Of a stretch of 64,000 nt of DNA, positions 1,172 through 49,195 are shown piece after piece; the first letter of the stretch is position 1; every line of letters starts with the position of its first letter. Both the position numbers and the translations under genes were made by a program. Origin of the DNA: Planctomycetales bacterium ZRK34 (GTDB lineage Bacteria > Planctomycetota > Phycisphaerae > Phycisphaerales > Zrk34). The stretch spans positions 2,046,001 through 2,110,000 of the forward strand of contig CP050848.1 in assembly GCA_014873095.1 (NCBI GenBank), read 5' to 3'. The notes under the pieces are model-generated. The model had not been told where the DNA came from. It did not search any database and saw only the letters and a program-made list of their open reading frames with translations.

Positions 1172-1214
1172 AGTACCAGACGCTTCGGCTGCGCCTCAGC
1201 GTCGGCGTGGGGGG
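1172..1214. repeat. Palindromic repeat family A, copy 1
   Basis: A REP-like unit of about 43 bases with GTACCAGACGCTTC at one end and CTCAGCGTCGGCG at the other. The two ends form an imperfect hairpin (GACGCT/AGCGTC). Further copies lie at 15764-15809, 27005-27044 and 31101-31140. This copy starts 8 bases after a stop codon. Confidence 0.8.
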
Positions 1215-7213: not shown

Positions 7214-7294
7214 AGCCTCACGCCAAGGCGCTAAGGCGCAAAAGGAAGAATCAAAAACATTTTCTTTTTGGCGCCTTAGCGCCTTGGCGAGAGG
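7214..7294. repeat. Long inverted repeat (CGCCAAGGCGCTAAGGCG type) between exporter genes
   Basis: The left arm (7214-7248) and right arm (7261-7294) are near-perfect reverse complements over about 30 bases, built from CGCCAAGGCGCTAAGGCG, with an A/T-rich loop. It sits between the ATPase stop and the permease start and could fold as a long RNA hairpin. Confidence 0.88.
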
Positions 7295-7319
7295 CCAAAC
7301 TGATTAACACGGACACCCC

Positions 7320-11325: not shown

Positions 11326-13125
11326 TCAATCACACCAGCGGATGTCTTCGACGATCAGTTCAACATTCGTGCGACCGTTCCACGTGTTCAGCGTCGGCTC
11401 GGCAACGACGTCGATCACCGCGCCGGCGGGCAGGCGCTCGGCCAGATCACCCATCGACCATGCGATCGCACGCATCGAGGCGCCGTTCTGATTCAAAATC
11501 ATCGATAAATGCCGTGCTTTCTGACCCATCGTGCGGGCGGGCTGATGCAGCTTCGCCCCGCGAATCAACAAACGCGGCTTGCGGTTGTCACGCCCGAACG
11601 GCTCCATCTTTTTGATCTGACTGACGACGTTCGGCGACAGCGCCGCCAGCTCGACCGCTGCGTCGATGTCGATCATCGGCGTCAGGTCGTCGACGCTCAG
11701 TCGCTCGGCGGCGTAATCGATCATCGCCGTACGGAAAGCGTCGACGGATGCATCCGCCAGCGTGAGTCCGGCGGCCATGGCGTGTCCGCCGAACTTCGTC
11801 AGATGATCGGCGCAGGCGCAGAACGCTTCGTGGATGTTGAACCCGTCGATCGACCGCGCCGAGCCGGACGCTTCACCCTCGTTGATGTTCAGCAACACCG
11901 TGGGTCGCCCAAACCGCTCGACGAGGCGCGAGCACACGATGCCGACCACGCCCTTGTGCCAACCCGCATCGGCCAACACGATCGCGCGCACGTCATCATG
12001 GTCATACCCGTGATCGGTCACGAAGTCGGCGGCCTGCTCGAAGATCTGCCGCTCGGTGGCGCGGCGCTGGTCGTTCGCTTTGTTGAGCGTCTCGGCGATT
12101 TCGTGAGCCTCGTCGGGTGTGGCGTCGGTCAGCAGTTTCACCGCTTCGCGCGCGTGGCCCATTCGGCCACAGGCGTTGAGCCGCGGGCCGAGGACGAACC
12201 CGACGTGGTAGCTGTCGATTTTCTTTTCGTCTTCGAGTCGTGACGCGGCGATCAGGGCATCGAGCCCGGCGAAGGGCGTGTGGCGAACACGACGCAGACC
12301 GCAGTGTGCGATCACGCGGTTTTCACCGACCAGCGGGACGACATCAGCAATCGTGCCGAGGGCTGCCAGCGGCAGCAGGTCGATCAGAAGCTGTTTGAAC
12401 TTGGCGCTGACGCGGTCGGAGTTGCAGAAGACACGCGCGATCTGCCAGGCGAGTTTGTAGGCGACGCCGGCGCCGCAGATTTCCGCGAACGGATACCCCG
12501 ACGACTCGCTTTGCTCGTCATCGGGCTTGAGGCGGGGGTGGACCAGCGCGAAGGCTTCGGGGAGGGTGGCGTCCATCTCGTGATGGTCGGTGATGATCAG
12601 GTCGACGCCGCGCTGTCGGGCGACGGCGGCAGGCTCGCAGGCGGTGATGCCGCAGTCGACGCTGATGATGACCTCGGCGCCGTCGTCGCACAGCGCGGTG
12701 ATGGCATCGGCATTCAGGCCATAGCCTTCGTCGAGGCGATGCGGCACGTAGCAGGTGACTTTCGCGGCGGGGTCGGCGGTTTTGAGCGTGTGGTAGAGGA
12801 TGGCGGTCGCGGTGACACCGTCGACGTCGTAGTCGCCGTAGATCACGATGTGTTGATTTTCGCGGATCGCCTGGACGATGCGTTCGGCGGCGCGGCAGGC
12901 GCCCGGCAGCAGTTTCGGGTCGTGTAAATTCGCCAGGCTCGGCTTGAAATACAACTCCGCCGCATCGACATCGCGCACCTCACGCTGCCAGAGCAGTTGC
13001 CCGATCAGCGTATCAACGCGCAGCGACTTGGCCAGCGCGATCGACTCGTCGCAAGGCGCAGCCAACCGCCAGCGTTTGAACCGGCCGCGCAGCGTGTCGT
13101 CATCCGTGACGGTGGTTTGGGTCAT
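11326..13125 (-). CDS. recJ: Single-stranded-DNA-specific exonuclease RecJ
   Basis: A 599-residue cytoplasmic 5'-3' ssDNA exonuclease of the DHH family acting in recombination and mismatch repair. The metal-binding motifs are intact: HIVIYGDYDVDGVTAT, SVDCGI, and the DHH motif in ITDHHEMD, followed by the DHHA1 region (FGGHAMAAGLTL) and a C-terminal OB-like part. Length is normal. The ATG overlaps the truD stop by 4 bases, so truD and recJ are translated together. An insertion reading PDDEQSESSG before YPFAEICGAGVA comes from a dispersed repeat (12495-12529). Confidence 0.95.
   Translation of the reverse strand: MTQTTVTDDDTLRGRFKRWRLAAPCDESIALAKSLRVDTLIGQLLWQREVRDVDAAELYFKPSLANLHDPKLLPGACRAAERIVQAIRENQHIVIYGDYDVDGVTATAILYHTLKTADPAAKVTCYVPHRLDEGYGLNADAITALCDDGAEVIISVDCGITACEPAAVARQRGVDLIITDHHEMDATLPEAFALVHPRLKPDDEQSESSGYPFAEICGAGVAYKLAWQIARVFCNSDRVSAKFKQLLIDLLPLAALGTIADVVPLVGENRVIAHCGLRRVRHTPFAGLDALIAASRLEDEKKIDSYHVGFVLGPRLNACGRMGHAREAVKLLTDATPDEAHEIAETLNKANDQRRATERQIFEQAADFVTDHGYDHDDVRAIVLADAGWHKGVVGIVCSRLVERFGRPTVLLNINEGEASGSARSIDGFNIHEAFCACADHLTKFGGHAMAAGLTLADASVDAFRTAMIDYAAERLSVDDLTPMIDIDAAVELAALSPNVVSQIKKMEPFGRDNRKPRLLIRGAKLHQPARTMGQKARHLSMILNQNGASMRAIAWSMGDLAERLPAGAVIDVVAEPTLNTWNGRTNVELIVEDIRWCD
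12495..12529. repeat. In-frame repeat (PDDE-SESSG element) inside recJ
   Basis: A 35-base imperfect palindrome (CCCCGACGACTCGCT ... GCTCGTCATCGGGCTTG) is 33/35 identical to 45965-45999 inside rarA. Read in the gene frame it encodes KPDDEQSESSG, with no counterpart in RecJ of other bacteria as I know the family. Confidence 0.88.
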
Positions 13126-14412: not shown

Positions 14413-15543
14413 ATGGCGCCGCCCACGCAATCTTTCGACGCACGTGTCGCTGTCGACCGCTGGATCGACACCGCCGCAGCCGACGGCGCGTCCGATGTCC
14501 ACCTCGATCCCACCGCCGACGGCTACACGCTCCGCCGCCGCATCGACGGCCTGCTCGACGCCCCCGCCGCACTGCCCGATGAACACGGCCGGGCCATGGT
14601 CAACCGGCTCATGGTCATGGCCAACCTGCTGACCTACCGCCTGGACATCCCCCAGGAAGGCACGCTCCGCGCCGCCGCCCCGTCCGTCGGTAAAACCCTC
14701 GAACTGCGACTGGCCGTGATGCCGACCACGCATGGCCTGCGGGCCGTCGTCCGCCTGCCCGCTGAGTTGATTCAACCCCGCAGCCTCGATGCGCTGAACC
14801 TCCCCGAGCCCGCGATGCACACGCTGCGTCGCTTCGCCGATGCCGACACCGGCCTGCTGCTGCTGACCGGTCCCGCCGGCTCCGGCAAAACCACCACGAT
14901 CTATGCCCTGCTCGAACTCATCGCCGCGCGCCACCCCGGCCTCAGCCTCGTCGCCTTCGAAGACCCCGTCGAGCGCGACCTGCCCGGCGTCACACAAATT
15001 CAGGTCGCCCCGCACGGTGAACTCACCTACCAGCGCGCCCTGCGCAGCATCGTTCGGCAAGACCCGCAGGTGTTGATGCTCGGTGAAATCCGCGATTCAG
15101 AAACCGCCTCCGCCGCCATCGCCGCCGCGCTGACCGGTCACCGCCTGATCGCCACGCTGCACGCCGGCTCGCCCGCCGCCGCCATCGCGCGCCTCATCGA
15201 AATGCAGCTTCAGCCGTACCAGATCACCAGCGCCCTGTTCGCCGTGATCAATCAGCGACTGCTGCGCCGGCGGCAGAACGATGAATACCGCGGCCGTGTG
15301 CCGATCGCCGAGTCGGTCACGCTGACCGAACCCCTGCGCCGCGCGATTCTCGAAAAGTCCGACGCCGCGACGATGACCCAGATCATTCACAATCACCCTG
15401 ACCATCTGACCCTCCGCGCCGCCGCCAAGCGCCTGATCGAATCGGGCCTCACCGACGATGCGGAACTAACCCGCGTGCTGGGAGCAGAAGATCATCACGA
15501 AGTACACGAAGGCGCGAAGGACACGAAGAAAAACAGTTATTGA
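14413..15543 (+). CDS. GspE/PilB-family secretion ATPase, compact form lacking the tetracysteine domain
   Basis: A 376-residue cytoplasmic hexameric ATPase that powers pseudopilus or pilus assembly. Walker A GPAGSGKTT (about 154-162), Asp box and Walker B VLMLGEIRD (about 218-226) and the His box LIATLHAG are intact. Two parts of the usual protein are missing: the N-terminal GspE_N domain (family members are about 500-570 aa) and the CxxC-x(n)-CxxC zinc insert, because NQRLLRRR passes directly to NDEYRGRVPIAE. The last 15 or so codons are formed by one arm of a hairpin repeat. The two F-type membrane proteins follow directly. Confidence 0.9.
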   Translation: MAPPTQSFDARVAVDRWIDTAAADGASDVHLDPTADGYTLRRRIDGLLDAPAALPDEHGRAMVNRLMVMANLLTYRLDIPQEGTLRAAAPSVGKTLELRLAVMPTTHGLRAVVRLPAELIQPRSLDALNLPEPAMHTLRRFADADTGLLLLTGPAGSGKTTTIYALLELIAARHPGLSLVAFEDPVERDLPGVTQIQVAPHGELTYQRALRSIVRQDPQVLMLGEIRDSETASAAIAAALTGHRLIATLHAGSPAAAIARLIEMQLQPYQITSALFAVINQRLLRRRQNDEYRGRVPIAESVTLTEPLRRAILEKSDAATMTQIIHNHPDHLTLRAAAKRLIESGLTDDAELTRVLGAEDHHEVHEGAKDTKKNSY

Positions 15544-15581
15544 CTTATCTTAGTGTCCTTCGCGCCTTCGTGTACTTCGTG
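15496..15581. repeat. Perfect 29-bp inverted repeat spanning the gspE-like stop codon
   Basis: The arm 15496-15524 is an exact reverse complement of 15553-15581 (core CACGAAGGCGCGAAGG). The stop codon at 15541-15543 lies in the 28-base loop, so the left arm is translated as the C-terminus. Confidence 0.93.
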
Positions 15582-15609: not shown

Positions 15610-16836
15610 ATGCCAGACGACCTGAACATTCCGGTGGTTTTTCAGTATCGGGCGCAAGCGGCCGACGGGGCGGCGATGGACGGTACGATCGAGGCCGACA
15701 GCGCTGAAGCGGCGAACTACCGCCTGCGCGCGATGGGTCTGACCGTGCTTGAATTGAACCCGGCCCCCACGCCGACGCTGAGCCCTCCCGGGGCGAAGCG
15801 TCTGGTCCCGGCCGCCGACTTCGCCGCCTTCAACGAACAACTCGCGCTGCTGGCCGAGGCGAACATGCCGCTGGAGCACGGCCTGCGCCTGATCGCCGAC
15901 GACATGCACCGCGGCCGACTCGCCGACTCGGTCCGCGAAGTCGCCGGTGAACTCGAAGCCGGCCGATCGCTGAGCGATGCATTCGATAAACACCGCCACC
16001 GCTTTCCCACGATGTACAGCCGTATCGTCGAGGTCGGCATGGCCAATGGCAATCTCGCCGGCGTCCTGCTGAACATGTCGCGCCACCTGGCGATGACCCA
16101 GCGCCTGCGGGCCGCGATCTGGCGGGCGGTCAGCTACCCGCTGATGGTGATCGTGGCGATGTCGGTGGTGATGAGCTTTGTGGGTGTGTTCGTCGTGCCG
16201 CAGTTTGTCGACATTTACCATGATTTTGATACGGAGCTGCCCTGGCTGACGGAGGTGGTGACGAAGTTCTGGCTCGCCTCGCCGGTGATCGTGATCGCGA
16301 TGGGGCTGGCGATCGTCGCGTTTCCGACGATCTGGCAGATGATGCGGGCCGCCGGGCAGGAGGGCCGCTTCATCGAGGTCGCCCTGTTGCCGCTGCCGAT
16401 CATCGGACGCATGCTCAAACGCAACTACGCCGCCCGCTGGTGTGACCTGGTCGGCTTGTCGGTCGACGCCGGCGTCGATCTGCCACGCGCCATCAGCATG
16501 GCCGGCGAAGCGATCGGCATCCCCAGCTTGATCGACGATACCAACGCCATGTGCGCCGCCGTCGAACTCGGCGGCCGACTCACACAGGTGCACAGGCTTC
16601 ACGTATTGCCCATCACCACGCCGCGCGCCATGGCCAGCGCCATCGAGCGCGGCACGCTGGGTGTGACTCTGCGCACGCTGCGCGACATGTACGCCAGACA
16701 AGCCGACCACGGCCTCGGCGCTCTGCAGGCCGTGCTGCTGCCGACACTGCTGATCCTGCTGGCGATTATCATCGGTATAACGATTCTCGCCCTGTTCCTG
16801 CCGTTTGTGAACATGTTTTTCTACATCACGGGCTGA
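15610..16836 (+). CDS. GspF/PilC-type inner-membrane platform protein (first copy)
   Basis: A 408-residue inner-membrane protein of the type II secretion F family, the platform that couples the ATPase to pilin assembly. The N-terminal motif QYRAQAADGAAMDGTIEADSAEAA is typical. Two T2SSF domains (about 75-195 and 275-400) carry AAFNEQLALLAEANMPLEHG and helices YPLMVIVAMSVVMSFVGVFVVP and LLPTLLILLAIIIGITILALF. Between the N-terminal domain and the first T2SSF domain, residues about 52-66 (PAPTPTLSPPGAKRLVP) are encoded by palindromic repeat A. Only 3 bases separate it from the second F protein. Confidence 0.92.
   Translation: MPDDLNIPVVFQYRAQAADGAAMDGTIEADSAEAANYRLRAMGLTVLELNPAPTPTLSPPGAKRLVPAADFAAFNEQLALLAEANMPLEHGLRLIADDMHRGRLADSVREVAGELEAGRSLSDAFDKHRHRFPTMYSRIVEVGMANGNLAGVLLNMSRHLAMTQRLRAAIWRAVSYPLMVIVAMSVVMSFVGVFVVPQFVDIYHDFDTELPWLTEVVTKFWLASPVIVIAMGLAIVAFPTIWQMMRAAGQEGRFIEVALLPLPIIGRMLKRNYAARWCDLVGLSVDAGVDLPRAISMAGEAIGIPSLIDDTNAMCAAVELGGRLTQVHRLHVLPITTPRAMASAIERGTLGVTLRTLRDMYARQADHGLGALQAVLLPTLLILLAIIIGITILALFLPFVNMFFYITG
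15764..15809. repeat. Palindromic repeat family A, copy 2, inside a coding region
   Basis: CCCCCACGCCGACGCTGAG at the left and GAAGCGTCTGGTCCC at the right match the intergenic copies. It encodes the linker PTPTLSPPGAKRLVP of the first F-type protein. Confidence 0.8.
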
Positions 16837-25777: not shown

Positions 25778-25880
25778 ATTGCAAATTGCGAATTGTGAAT
25801 TGCAAATTGAAAATTGGCGTCACGTGAATTGCGGGCGCCATTTTCAATTTTCAATGGTCAATTTTCAATGTGCAATTTCC
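25778..25880. repeat. AT-rich inverted repeat of CAATTTTCAATT units
   Basis: Tandem GAATTGTGAATTGCAAATTG-like words on the left and CAATTTTCAATGG-like words on the right form a long imperfect stem; the best arm pairs 25806-25819 with 25836-25848 around GGCG/CGCC. Confidence 0.85.
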
Positions 25881-27004: not shown

Positions 27005-27044
27005 CCCCCCACGCCGACGCTGAGCGCCGCGAGGCGTCTGGTAC
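27005..27044. repeat. Palindromic repeat family A, copy 3
   Basis: CCCCCCACGCCGACGCTGAG and GAGGCGTCTGGTAC, same unit as 1172-1214 in opposite orientation. Confidence 0.8.
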
Positions 27045-31100: not shown

Positions 31101-31140
31101 GTACCAGACGCTTCGCGTGGCTCAGCGTCGGCGTTTGGGG
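31101..31140. repeat. Palindromic repeat family A, copy 4
   Basis: GTACCAGACGCTTCGCG and GGCTCAGCGTCGGCG; ends 2 bases before the stop codon of the minus-strand gene at 31143. Confidence 0.8.
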
Positions 31141-39791: not shown

Positions 39792-39834
39792 CTCAACCCC
39801 CTCTCCCTTTCAGGGAGAGGGCTGGGGTGAGGGT
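39792..39834. repeat. Left terminal inverted repeat of the DUF559 cassette
   Basis: A 43-base element that is itself a hairpin (CCCTCTCCCT / CAGGGAGAGGG) and ends in CTGGGGTGAGGGT. It matches the reverse complement of 40251-40293 at nearly every base. It starts 2 bases after the gltB stop. Confidence 0.93.
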
Positions 39835-39855: not shown

Positions 39856-40311
39856 ATGAACCGCATGACCAAAGATCGTCCCAAAATTCATCGCATCGCG
39901 CCGCCCATGACGCAGCGCGCCCGCGACCTGAGAAAGGATTCGCCGACGCCCGAGCGAATCCTCTGGGGCTATCTGCGCAATCGCCAGCTCGGCGGACTCA
40001 AGTTCCGTCGACAGGTTCCGATCGATCGCTATGTGGCTGATTACTACTGCGCCGATGCGAAGTTGATCATCGAACTGGATGGTGAATCGCACGTCGGACG
40101 TGCCGAATACGATGAGCGTCGCACACAGGTTCTCGAATCGCGCGGCTACCGCGTGCTTCGATTCATGAATGACGATCTGCTGAATCATCCCGAAGCGGTG
40201 GCTGATGCGATTCTGCGCGCCGCCGAGGATGCTGAAATTAACACGACTTCACCCTCACCCCAGCCCTCTCCCTGTCAGGGAGAGGGGGTAAGAGGAGCCC
40301 GCGATGGGTAA
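39856..40311 (+). CDS. DUF559 family endonuclease-like protein between gltB and gltD
   Basis: This 151-residue protein belongs to DUF559, a Vsr-like branch of the PD-(D/E)xK nuclease superfamily. [20 protein letters not shown] and [16 protein letters not shown] lead to the active-site pattern Asp (VADYYC) and Glu-x-Asp (IIELDGESH), then [13 protein letters not shown]. The last 20 or so codons are formed by the right inverted repeat ([14 protein letters not shown]), so the domain ends earlier, near residue 125. It splits gltB from gltD, genes that are normally adjacent. Target and role are unknown; a link to the flanking repeats is inference. Confidence 0.88.
40251..40293. repeat. Right terminal inverted repeat of the DUF559 cassette
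   Basis: ACCCTCACCCCAG, then the hairpin CCCTCTCCCT/AGGGAGAGGG. It encodes the tail of the DUF559 protein and ends where the gltD Shine-Dalgarno (AGAGGAG, 40291-40297) begins. Confidence 0.93.
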
Positions 40312-45317: not shown

Positions 45318-46688
45318 TCACGCGCGGTCGTCGCCTGATTCGCTCAGCGATGCCAGCCACTGCATGTATTGGCGGATGTGTTTTTCGTAGCCGCGGTCGA
45401 CCGGTTCGTAGTAGGTTTTGTCGACGCCGAGGTAGTCCTGGTCGACGTAGCCGTGCTCGGAGTTGTGGGCGTACTGGTAGCCTTCGTGACCAAGCTTCTT
45501 GGCGCCGGCGTAGTGCGTGTCGCGCAGGTGTTTGGGCACGGGCACGGTCCGCTGATTCTTCACGTCCGACACCGCCCGGCCGATGGCGAGCGTCGAGGCG
45601 TTCGACTTGGGGGCGGTCGCCATGTAGATCGCCGCCTGGGCGAGCGTGAGCTGAGCTTCGGGCAGACCGATGCGCTCGGTGATCTGATACGCGCTGGCGG
45701 CAACGGTGATCGCGCGCGGGTCGGCGTTGCCGACGTCTTCACTGGCGAGGATGGCGATGCGGCGGGCGATGAACAACGGGTCTTCACCCGCGACGATCAT
45801 GCGAGCCAGCCAGTACACCGCCGCGTCGGGGTCCGACCCGCGCATCGATTTGATGAACGCGCTGATCGTGTCATAGTGAGAATCGCCGGTCGGGTCGTAC
45901 TCGAGGGCTTTGCGCTGGATGGATTCTTCGGCAATGGCGCGGGTGATGACAACCGCCTCCGTAGACCCCGACGACTCGCTGCGCTCGTCATCGGGCTTGG
46001 TCGTCGACAACACCGCGATTTCGAGGCCGGTCAGGGCGCGGCGGGCGTCGCCGTCGCACATCACGGCCCAGTGATCCAGCGCCTCATCGGTGACTTGGAG
46101 CTTGAGCTTGCCGTAGCCTCGATCTTCATCGGCGATCGCGCGGCGGAGCAGTGTTTTGATGTCGTCTTCGCTGAGCGATTGAAACTGAAACACCTGCGAG
46201 CGCGACACCAGCGGACTGTTCACGGCGAAAAAGGGATTCTCCGTGGTCGCGCCGATCAGTGTGATCGTGCCACGCTCCACATCGCGCAGCAGCACATCCT
46301 GCTGGGCGCGGTTGAAGCGGTGAATCTCATCGAGAAACAGGATCGTCTTGCGGCCCTGCCCGGCGGGATCAGTCAGCCGGCGCACGGCGTCCTCGAGCAC
46401 CATGCGAACTTCCTTGACGCCGATTGTGGCGGCGTTGGCGCGTTCGAAGTGGCGCTGGGTGACGGTGGCGATGACCTCGGCGAGTGTGGTTTTTCCGCAA
46501 CCGGGCGGGCCGTAGAAAATCACCGAAGTCAGGCGGTCGGCTTCGAGCATCCGTCGCAGCAGCTTGCCGGGCCCGAGGAAGTGGGTCTGCCCGGCGAATT
46601 CGTCGAGCGTCTGGGGGCGCATGCGGACCGCCAGCGGCTCGGCCGTCTTCAGAAGCTTCTCGCGCTGGTCCGCCCACAGGTCAGCCAT
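45318..46688 (-). CDS. rarA: Replication-associated recombination protein A (MgsA/RarA)
   Basis: A 456-residue AAA+ ATPase that acts at stalled replication forks. Walker [14 protein letters not shown] and Walker [12 protein letters not shown] are intact, followed by [12 protein letters not shown], the arginine-finger region and the MgsA C-terminal domain ([31 protein letters not shown]). ATG 46688 (MADLWADQ) is used. Residues [11 protein letters not shown] after EIAVLSTT derive from a repeat element (45965-45999) shared with recJ. Confidence 0.95.
45965..45999. repeat. In-frame repeat (PDDE-SESSG element) inside rarA
   Basis: 33 of 35 bases match 12495-12529 in recJ. It encodes [11 protein letters not shown] in a linker before the C-terminal domain. 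Confidence 0.88.
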
Positions 46689-46719
46689 GTGTATAGCGTA
46701 TCCCGACTGGTCGATGTGG

Positions 46720-46725
46720 TATAGT
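46720..46725 (+). promoter_or_regulatory. -10 element upstream of the CNNM/CBS gene
   Basis: TATAGT, 34 bases before the ATG at 46760; the -35 region is weak. Confidence 0.5.
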
Positions 46726-46759
46726 TGACCCGCACGATGGATTTCGGCACGGAACACTC

Positions 46760-49019: not shown

Positions 49020-49102
49020 GCCGTCCCGCGACGACAAGTCGGATCGCCGACGGCCCGGGACCGAGCAACAACCGTGAATCAACCCGACGGGTAATCGGTT
49101 AA
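49020..49102. other. Non-coding spacer before the tandem repeat
   Basis: The whole gap 49020-49349 holds no supportable gene. This part shows nothing recognisable; the tandem octamer array (49103-49154) and an AT-rich palindrome (49196-49223) follow. Confidence 0.5.
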
Positions 49103-49154
49103 CTGGTTGACTGGTTGACTGGTTGACTGGTTGACTGGTTGACTGGTTGACTGG
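49103..49154. repeat. Tandem octamer repeat CTGGTTGA
   Basis: Six exact head-to-tail copies of CTGGTTGA plus CTGG. The unit is too short and unspaced for CRISPR. Slipped-strand variation is likely. Confidence 0.95.
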
Positions 49155-49195
49155 GCAAACCGCCGATTGGTCATCGCTTTTGCCTACTGATTCAC

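Follow-up and report, generated by a model that had tools for sequence, protein, structure and literature searches.

How do two unrelated genes, recJ and rarA, come to share a nearly identical stretch of 35 nucleotides that is read in the same coding frame in both? The genes lie in the window, i.e., the whole 64,000-nucleotide stretch of DNA that was analyzed, which is part of the genome of a Phycisphaerae-type planctomycete, consisting of a single contig of 5.71 Mb. The host genes and the element copies that they carry, scored with a covariance model of the repeat family, are the following:

11326..13125, minus strand: recJ, host gene, 599 aa (TIGR00644, 506 bits versus a cut-off of 397)
12494..12529, minus strand: REP-like element copy inside recJ (55.2 bits, E 4.7e-11)
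45318..46757, minus strand: rarA (mgsA), host gene, 479 aa (Pfam AAA, AAA_assoc_2 and MgsA_C)
45964..45999, minus strand: REP-like element copy inside rarA (58.1 bits, E 9.4e-12)

As the initial annotation stated, positions 12495-12529 and 45965-45999 agree at 33 of 35 positions, and both differences fall in the loop (TT versus GC). The common frame holds as well: the minus-strand reading shared by both copies is AAG CCC GAT GAC GAG NNN AGC GAG TCG TCG GGG, which translates to KPDDE(Q/R)SESSG (KPDDEQSESSG in recJ). The rarA copy had been placed in a linker before the C-terminal domain; it is actually located within the AAA_assoc_2 (lid) domain, in the stretch from the helix that ends at residue 252 to the strand at residue 269, and not between AAA_assoc_2 and MgsA_C. 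That both sites are tolerant of extra sequence agrees with the AlphaFold models, in which residues 255-265 of RarA (the sole internal segment with a pLDDT below 50) and block 201-210 of RecJ (the lowest internal block, with a mean pLDDT of 61) hold the element copies. Searching the genome for the 35-mer with up to three mismatches yields 14 copies versus 0 for a reversed-pattern control, while a looser core yields 80 matches versus 8 in the control; the likeness between recJ and rarA therefore goes beyond chance.

The copies belong to a family with several sub-families of the same layout. Those in recJ and rarA follow CAAG-CCCGATGAC-GAGC-NNN-GCGA-GTCGTCGGG-GT, next to a second sub-family (CAAG-CCCGATGCT-GAGC-NNN-GCGA-AGCGTCGGG-GT), a CACG sister sub-family (CACG-CCGACGCT-GAGC-NNN-GCGA-AGCGTCTGGTAC) and a fourth one (CAAG-CCGAACGCT-...-GGAT). 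The general plan is a 5' C[AC]A[GC], a stem, a GAGC-NNN-GCGA tip, the returning stem and a few bases, together about 36 nt, with sharp ends near -10 and +24 relative to the core. A tandem G.A step (GA/GA) is conserved in the stem and the loop of 3 nt is variable. Next to the GA/GA step, the 49 distinct copies show compensatory stem changes (C-G to A-T, T-A to C-G): double changes occupy 23 cells compared to a shuffled mean of 7.4, and the covariation score is 0.182 compared to 0.104, with 0 of 500 shuffles as high. The hairpins fold as DNA with z-values from -1.8 to -4.2. The covariance model detects at least 133 copies in the genome at E<=1e-3, a lower bound as the count was taken from 150 scored candidates. 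The same model finds 37 copies in the closest relative (G005), three in another (G001) and no match in the remaining six family-member genomes searched; in an order-wide survey, 12 of 121 genomes have matches at E<=1e-5. A known RNA family was considered and rejected, as no Rfam match was obtained for the window. An imperfect palindrome of 36 nt, dispersed in at least 133 copies and with a covarying hairpin, corresponds to what is called a REP (20-40 nt, imperfectly palindromic, dispersed, high copy number). The unpaired GTAG or CGTC tag is absent, the 5' flank being CAAG, or CACG/CAAC in the sister sub-family. Given the lack of these tags, the family is best described as REP-like and RAYT-associated, belonging to neither tagged super-family.

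Most copies lie outside genes, mainly just after the sense gene end, and this extragenic position near gene 3' ends is likewise typical of REPs. The CAAG side faces the gene 3' end in 66 cases and the other side does so in 18; the stop codon is usually no more than 60 bp away. Replication strand was rejected as the cause of this orientation, because the copies show no bias between replichores, 319 of 1000 permutations being as high. An intragenic test, based on a codon-usage score trained on the long ORFs of the window and hence a small model with arbitrary thresholds, was passed by 38 copies and failed by 95 of the 133. The covariance model places six well-scoring copies within the window; besides those in recJ and rarA, these are:

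1173..1210, minus strand: family copy, 38-nt hairpin with a GAGGCGCAGCCGAA core (37.8 bits)
15767..15808, plus strand: family copy with a longer apical hairpin, failed the intragenic test (40.0 bits)
27009..27044, plus strand: CACG...GTCTGGTAC sub-family copy, failed the intragenic test (46.3 bits)
31101..31136, minus strand: CACG-type sub-family copy about 6 bp past the sense gene end, failed the intragenic test (47.7 bits)

The window also contains inverted repeats outside the family (39796-39834 with 40251-40289, 15496-15581, 7215-7295 and 25778-25876), among which are CCCTCTCCCT-type and CACGAAG-type palindromes. A tandem 8-mer array of GGTTGACT at 49089-49162 is related to the GGTTAACTGGTT-type repeats that adjoin several extragenic REP copies.

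We consider it highly probable that the element is a REP-like unit which a RAYT (REP-associated Y1/HUH transposase) spreads through insertions of about 36 bp, and that intragenic copies were kept where the frame and a protein loop tolerate them. A RAYT of the same genome would recognize the hairpin as single-stranded DNA and copy it to new places, which would mostly be just after gene ends and sometimes inside genes. As the inserted unit would measure about 36 bp (12 codons), the frame need not shift, and selection would keep those copies that add to a surface loop a flexible and hydrophilic peptide resembling KPDAERSEASG. The copies in recJ and rarA are most likely two such survivors with little effect on the enzymes, the peptide itself being presumably neutral. 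Another possibility, which is compatible with this explanation, is that the hairpins mainly serve as transcript 3' ends or mRNA stabilizers and that the intragenic copies are accidental. The orientation towards gene 3' ends, the proximity to stop codons and the lack of replichore bias would fit such a role, yet the intragenic copies and their frame are left unexplained by it, and we regard it as unlikely.

Spread by a RAYT finds a candidate enzyme in the genome, which comprises eight Y1_Tnp (PF01797) genes above the family cut-off. One of them (L244, genome positions 2035553-2036092) lies between inverted dimers of the CACG sub-family, which is a REPtron arrangement. Its product scores above the PF01797 cut-off and matches NF047646 (REP_Tyr_transpos) weakly, with 27.8 bits against a cut-off of 80. 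This is the only one of the eight loci with strong model matches, and these stem from the CACG...GTCTGGTAC sister sub-family; none of the eight Y1_Tnp loci is flanked by the exact recJ/rarA sub-family. Around a second RAYT (L245), CAAGCCGCGGGCTGAGGCGCAGCCGAAGCCCCGGAT hairpins (CAAG...GGAT) that were not scored by the covariance model show a layout that is similar by eye. We infer that a RAYT of the same genome moves the recJ/rarA sub-family. A transposase-free spread through recombination, gene conversion or template switching at hairpins would accommodate the lack of a RAYT with exactly matching flanks as well as the element site common to paralogous FecR-like genes. However, a RAYT gene is enclosed by inverted dimers of this very family, and flanking homology is absent among the unrelated target genes. 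We judge such spread improbable. Elsewhere in the genome (around 3.83 Mb), another RAYT-like gene (L240) has a different palindrome on both sides (AACCGACCCCGGAGGGGTCGGCTATATAGCCGACCC...); the two probably represent another REP family and the transposase belonging to it.

Two of the copies that passed the intragenic test were antisense (L038 and L221) and were judged false, as their flanking scores favor other frames. The 36 copies left are all in sense frames and, with the covarying hairpin, they bear out the initial proposal that a palindromic element resides in frame inside coding genes. Sense frame 1, reading K-P-x-x-E-x-S-E-x-S, accounts for 20 of them. Their hosts are dnaE (two copies), polA, dnaX, recJ, rarA, leuS, gcvP (two copies), hisD, murC, thiC, a pabB-like gene, a DUF481 gene and some less certain ones. 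With five of six frames open for these 20 copies (four of six in one case), the naive probability that all occur in frame 1 is about 10^-13.9, or 10^-6 given the sense orientation, both values being overstated because copies in the same gene or in paralogues are non-independent and the frame-2 group (16 copies) was set aside post hoc. Five replication or repair genes (dnaE, polA, dnaX, recJ and rarA) are found among the approximately 16 non-FecR host genes, a proportion uncorrected for gene length and conservation. The suggestion that the element is peculiar to DNA-repair genes is not supported, given hosts such as leuS, gcvP, hisD, murC, thiC, pabB and the FecR-like genes and the extragenic majority. 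Neither recJ nor rarA is essential as a rule, but the other hosts dnaE, polA, leuS and murC usually are. A further host gene (L036, about 1390-2439) contains the element three times, along with its 3' half (GEASDGEASDGEASD) in a tandem run, which suggests local amplification.

The second sense frame comprises the other 16 copies, 15 of which occur in FecR/anti-sigma-like paralogues, the sole exception being an AraC/XylR-type regulator. The name FecR/anti-sigma-like is our reading of the protein layout; the two such proteins that were scanned have no Pfam match. In the FecR-like copies (the 15 in frame 2 and one frame-1 host, L314) the element is located directly before the transmembrane helix, and frame 2 gives a basic stretch, e.g., RRSRSVWY or PTLRRSRSVWY. 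The genome has 77 FecR-like matches, and model matches of different sub-families occur in 24 of 30 loci (L365-L394, the best-matching paralogues). In most of these paralogues the hairpin directly precedes the transmembrane helix. The juxtamembrane element is also present in FecR-like loci of G005 (L280, L283).

The comparison with homologues shows that relatives lack the peptide: KPDDE(Q/R)SESSG is present in none of the 29 RecJ and approximately 60 RarA homologues listed, the best named RarA relatives being mostly Phycisphaeraceae/Phycisphaerales planctomycetes. Distant homologues with this peptide would have refuted the initial annotation, and none turned up. In the solved RecJ, RarA, GcvP, LeuRS, HisD and MurC structures and the relatives compared, the peptide is missing or the site is a gap. 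The expectation that other bacteria have shorter linkers is right for the solved RecJ and RarA chains, which are shorter at the element site, but does not extend to all RarA proteins, as their linker is highly variable and some relatives carry longer, unrelated inserts there. Such repeat-like inserts are seen in the RarA linker of L091, L099, L109, L111, L115, L117 and L126, and also at the RecJ site of L075, the second GcvP site of L355 and the LeuRS site of L396, with VAQPPSAV, PNSKLETRNSKL and QPGAQATG as examples. The variety of inserts that relatives carry there makes these positions look like general hotspots of tolerance or insertion. At its first site gcvP is exactly 12 codons longer than in G005, and so is hisD; a 36-bp insertion would hence keep the frame by itself. 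The net change differs from 12 codons in recJ (+6 to +7) and leuS (+7 or less), which implies either the loss of an old linker or events of another kind. In general, the inserted unit would be 36 bp long.

An alternative to mere tolerance is that the peptide or hairpin is useful, either as an actively selected linker module or by modulating repair enzymes, the latter being a speculation of Di Nocera et al. (PMC3733652). The single sense frame of 20 copies, the five replication or repair hosts and the use of a different, basic frame before the membrane helix of FecR-like proteins are all in line with it. Against it, the same genes in relatives lack the element and contain other short or repetitive inserts, the hosts are functionally unrelated, and purifying selection against bad frames alone can explain the frame bias. 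We therefore deem a useful peptide rather improbable and retain spread by a RAYT followed by survival at tolerant sites. Finally, an ancestral RecJ/RarA motif whose DNA match is due to coincidence or codon bias is hardly conceivable: the genome counts and homologue alignments refute chance similarity and an ancestral peptide alike, and this DNA is found outside genes as well, with covariation in its hairpin.

Palindromic repeats that lie in frame in unrelated protein genes are known as RPEs in Rickettsia. The present family behaves similarly, being in frame in unrelated genes and absent from homologues, which is a likeness of behavior, and it occurs in a different phylum. Intragenic REPs, too, are a known kind: Di Nocera et al. 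(2013; PMC3733652) described REPs inside ORFs of many species, remarked on flexible linkers and listed uvrABC, recBCD, polA (DNA polymerase I), dnaE and tRNA synthetase genes as hosts, a leaning to replication and repair genes that the share of such hosts found here recalls. They classed some Rickettsia RPEs (RPE-4/6) as CGTC REPs and did not find CGTC repeats flanking any transposase gene; the present family does flank one, a RAYT. Like GTAG/CGTC REPs (PMC3733652), the planctomycete elements are imperfect hairpins of 20-40 nt that number tens to hundreds and lie chiefly downstream of genes, with some copies inside ORFs and with replication/repair and tRNA synthetase hosts. Unlike them, they have a CAAG or CACG 5' flank without a tag, a tandem G.A step conserved in the stem and a 3-nt loop that varies, and outside the FecR-like group their intragenic copies use one sense frame (with one exception). 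The Y1 transposase gene between inverted hairpin dimers recalls REP-RAYT systems (REPtrons, REPINs/BIMEs), from which the present case differs in the weak REP_Tyr_transpos match and in flanking dimers of a sister sub-family. The family itself, its CAAG/CACG flank, the single-frame use and the juxtamembrane hotspot appear undescribed.

More tentatively, and with far less confidence than in spread by a RAYT, the family may be regarded as a translated mobile element, i.e., a REP family with a whole-codon unit (36 nt, 12 codons) and a built-in tolerated linker, in which case the FecR-like frame would represent its recurrent adoption as juxtamembrane protein sequence. Mobile hairpins turned into protein sequence are a simple route to new linkers in conserved enzymes. 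The family supplies some 36 examples within the genes of a single genome, clearly biased in frame and orientation, together with a candidate transposase next to related copies. In hosts such as DnaE, PolA and LeuRS the effect of a 12-residue insert is measurable.
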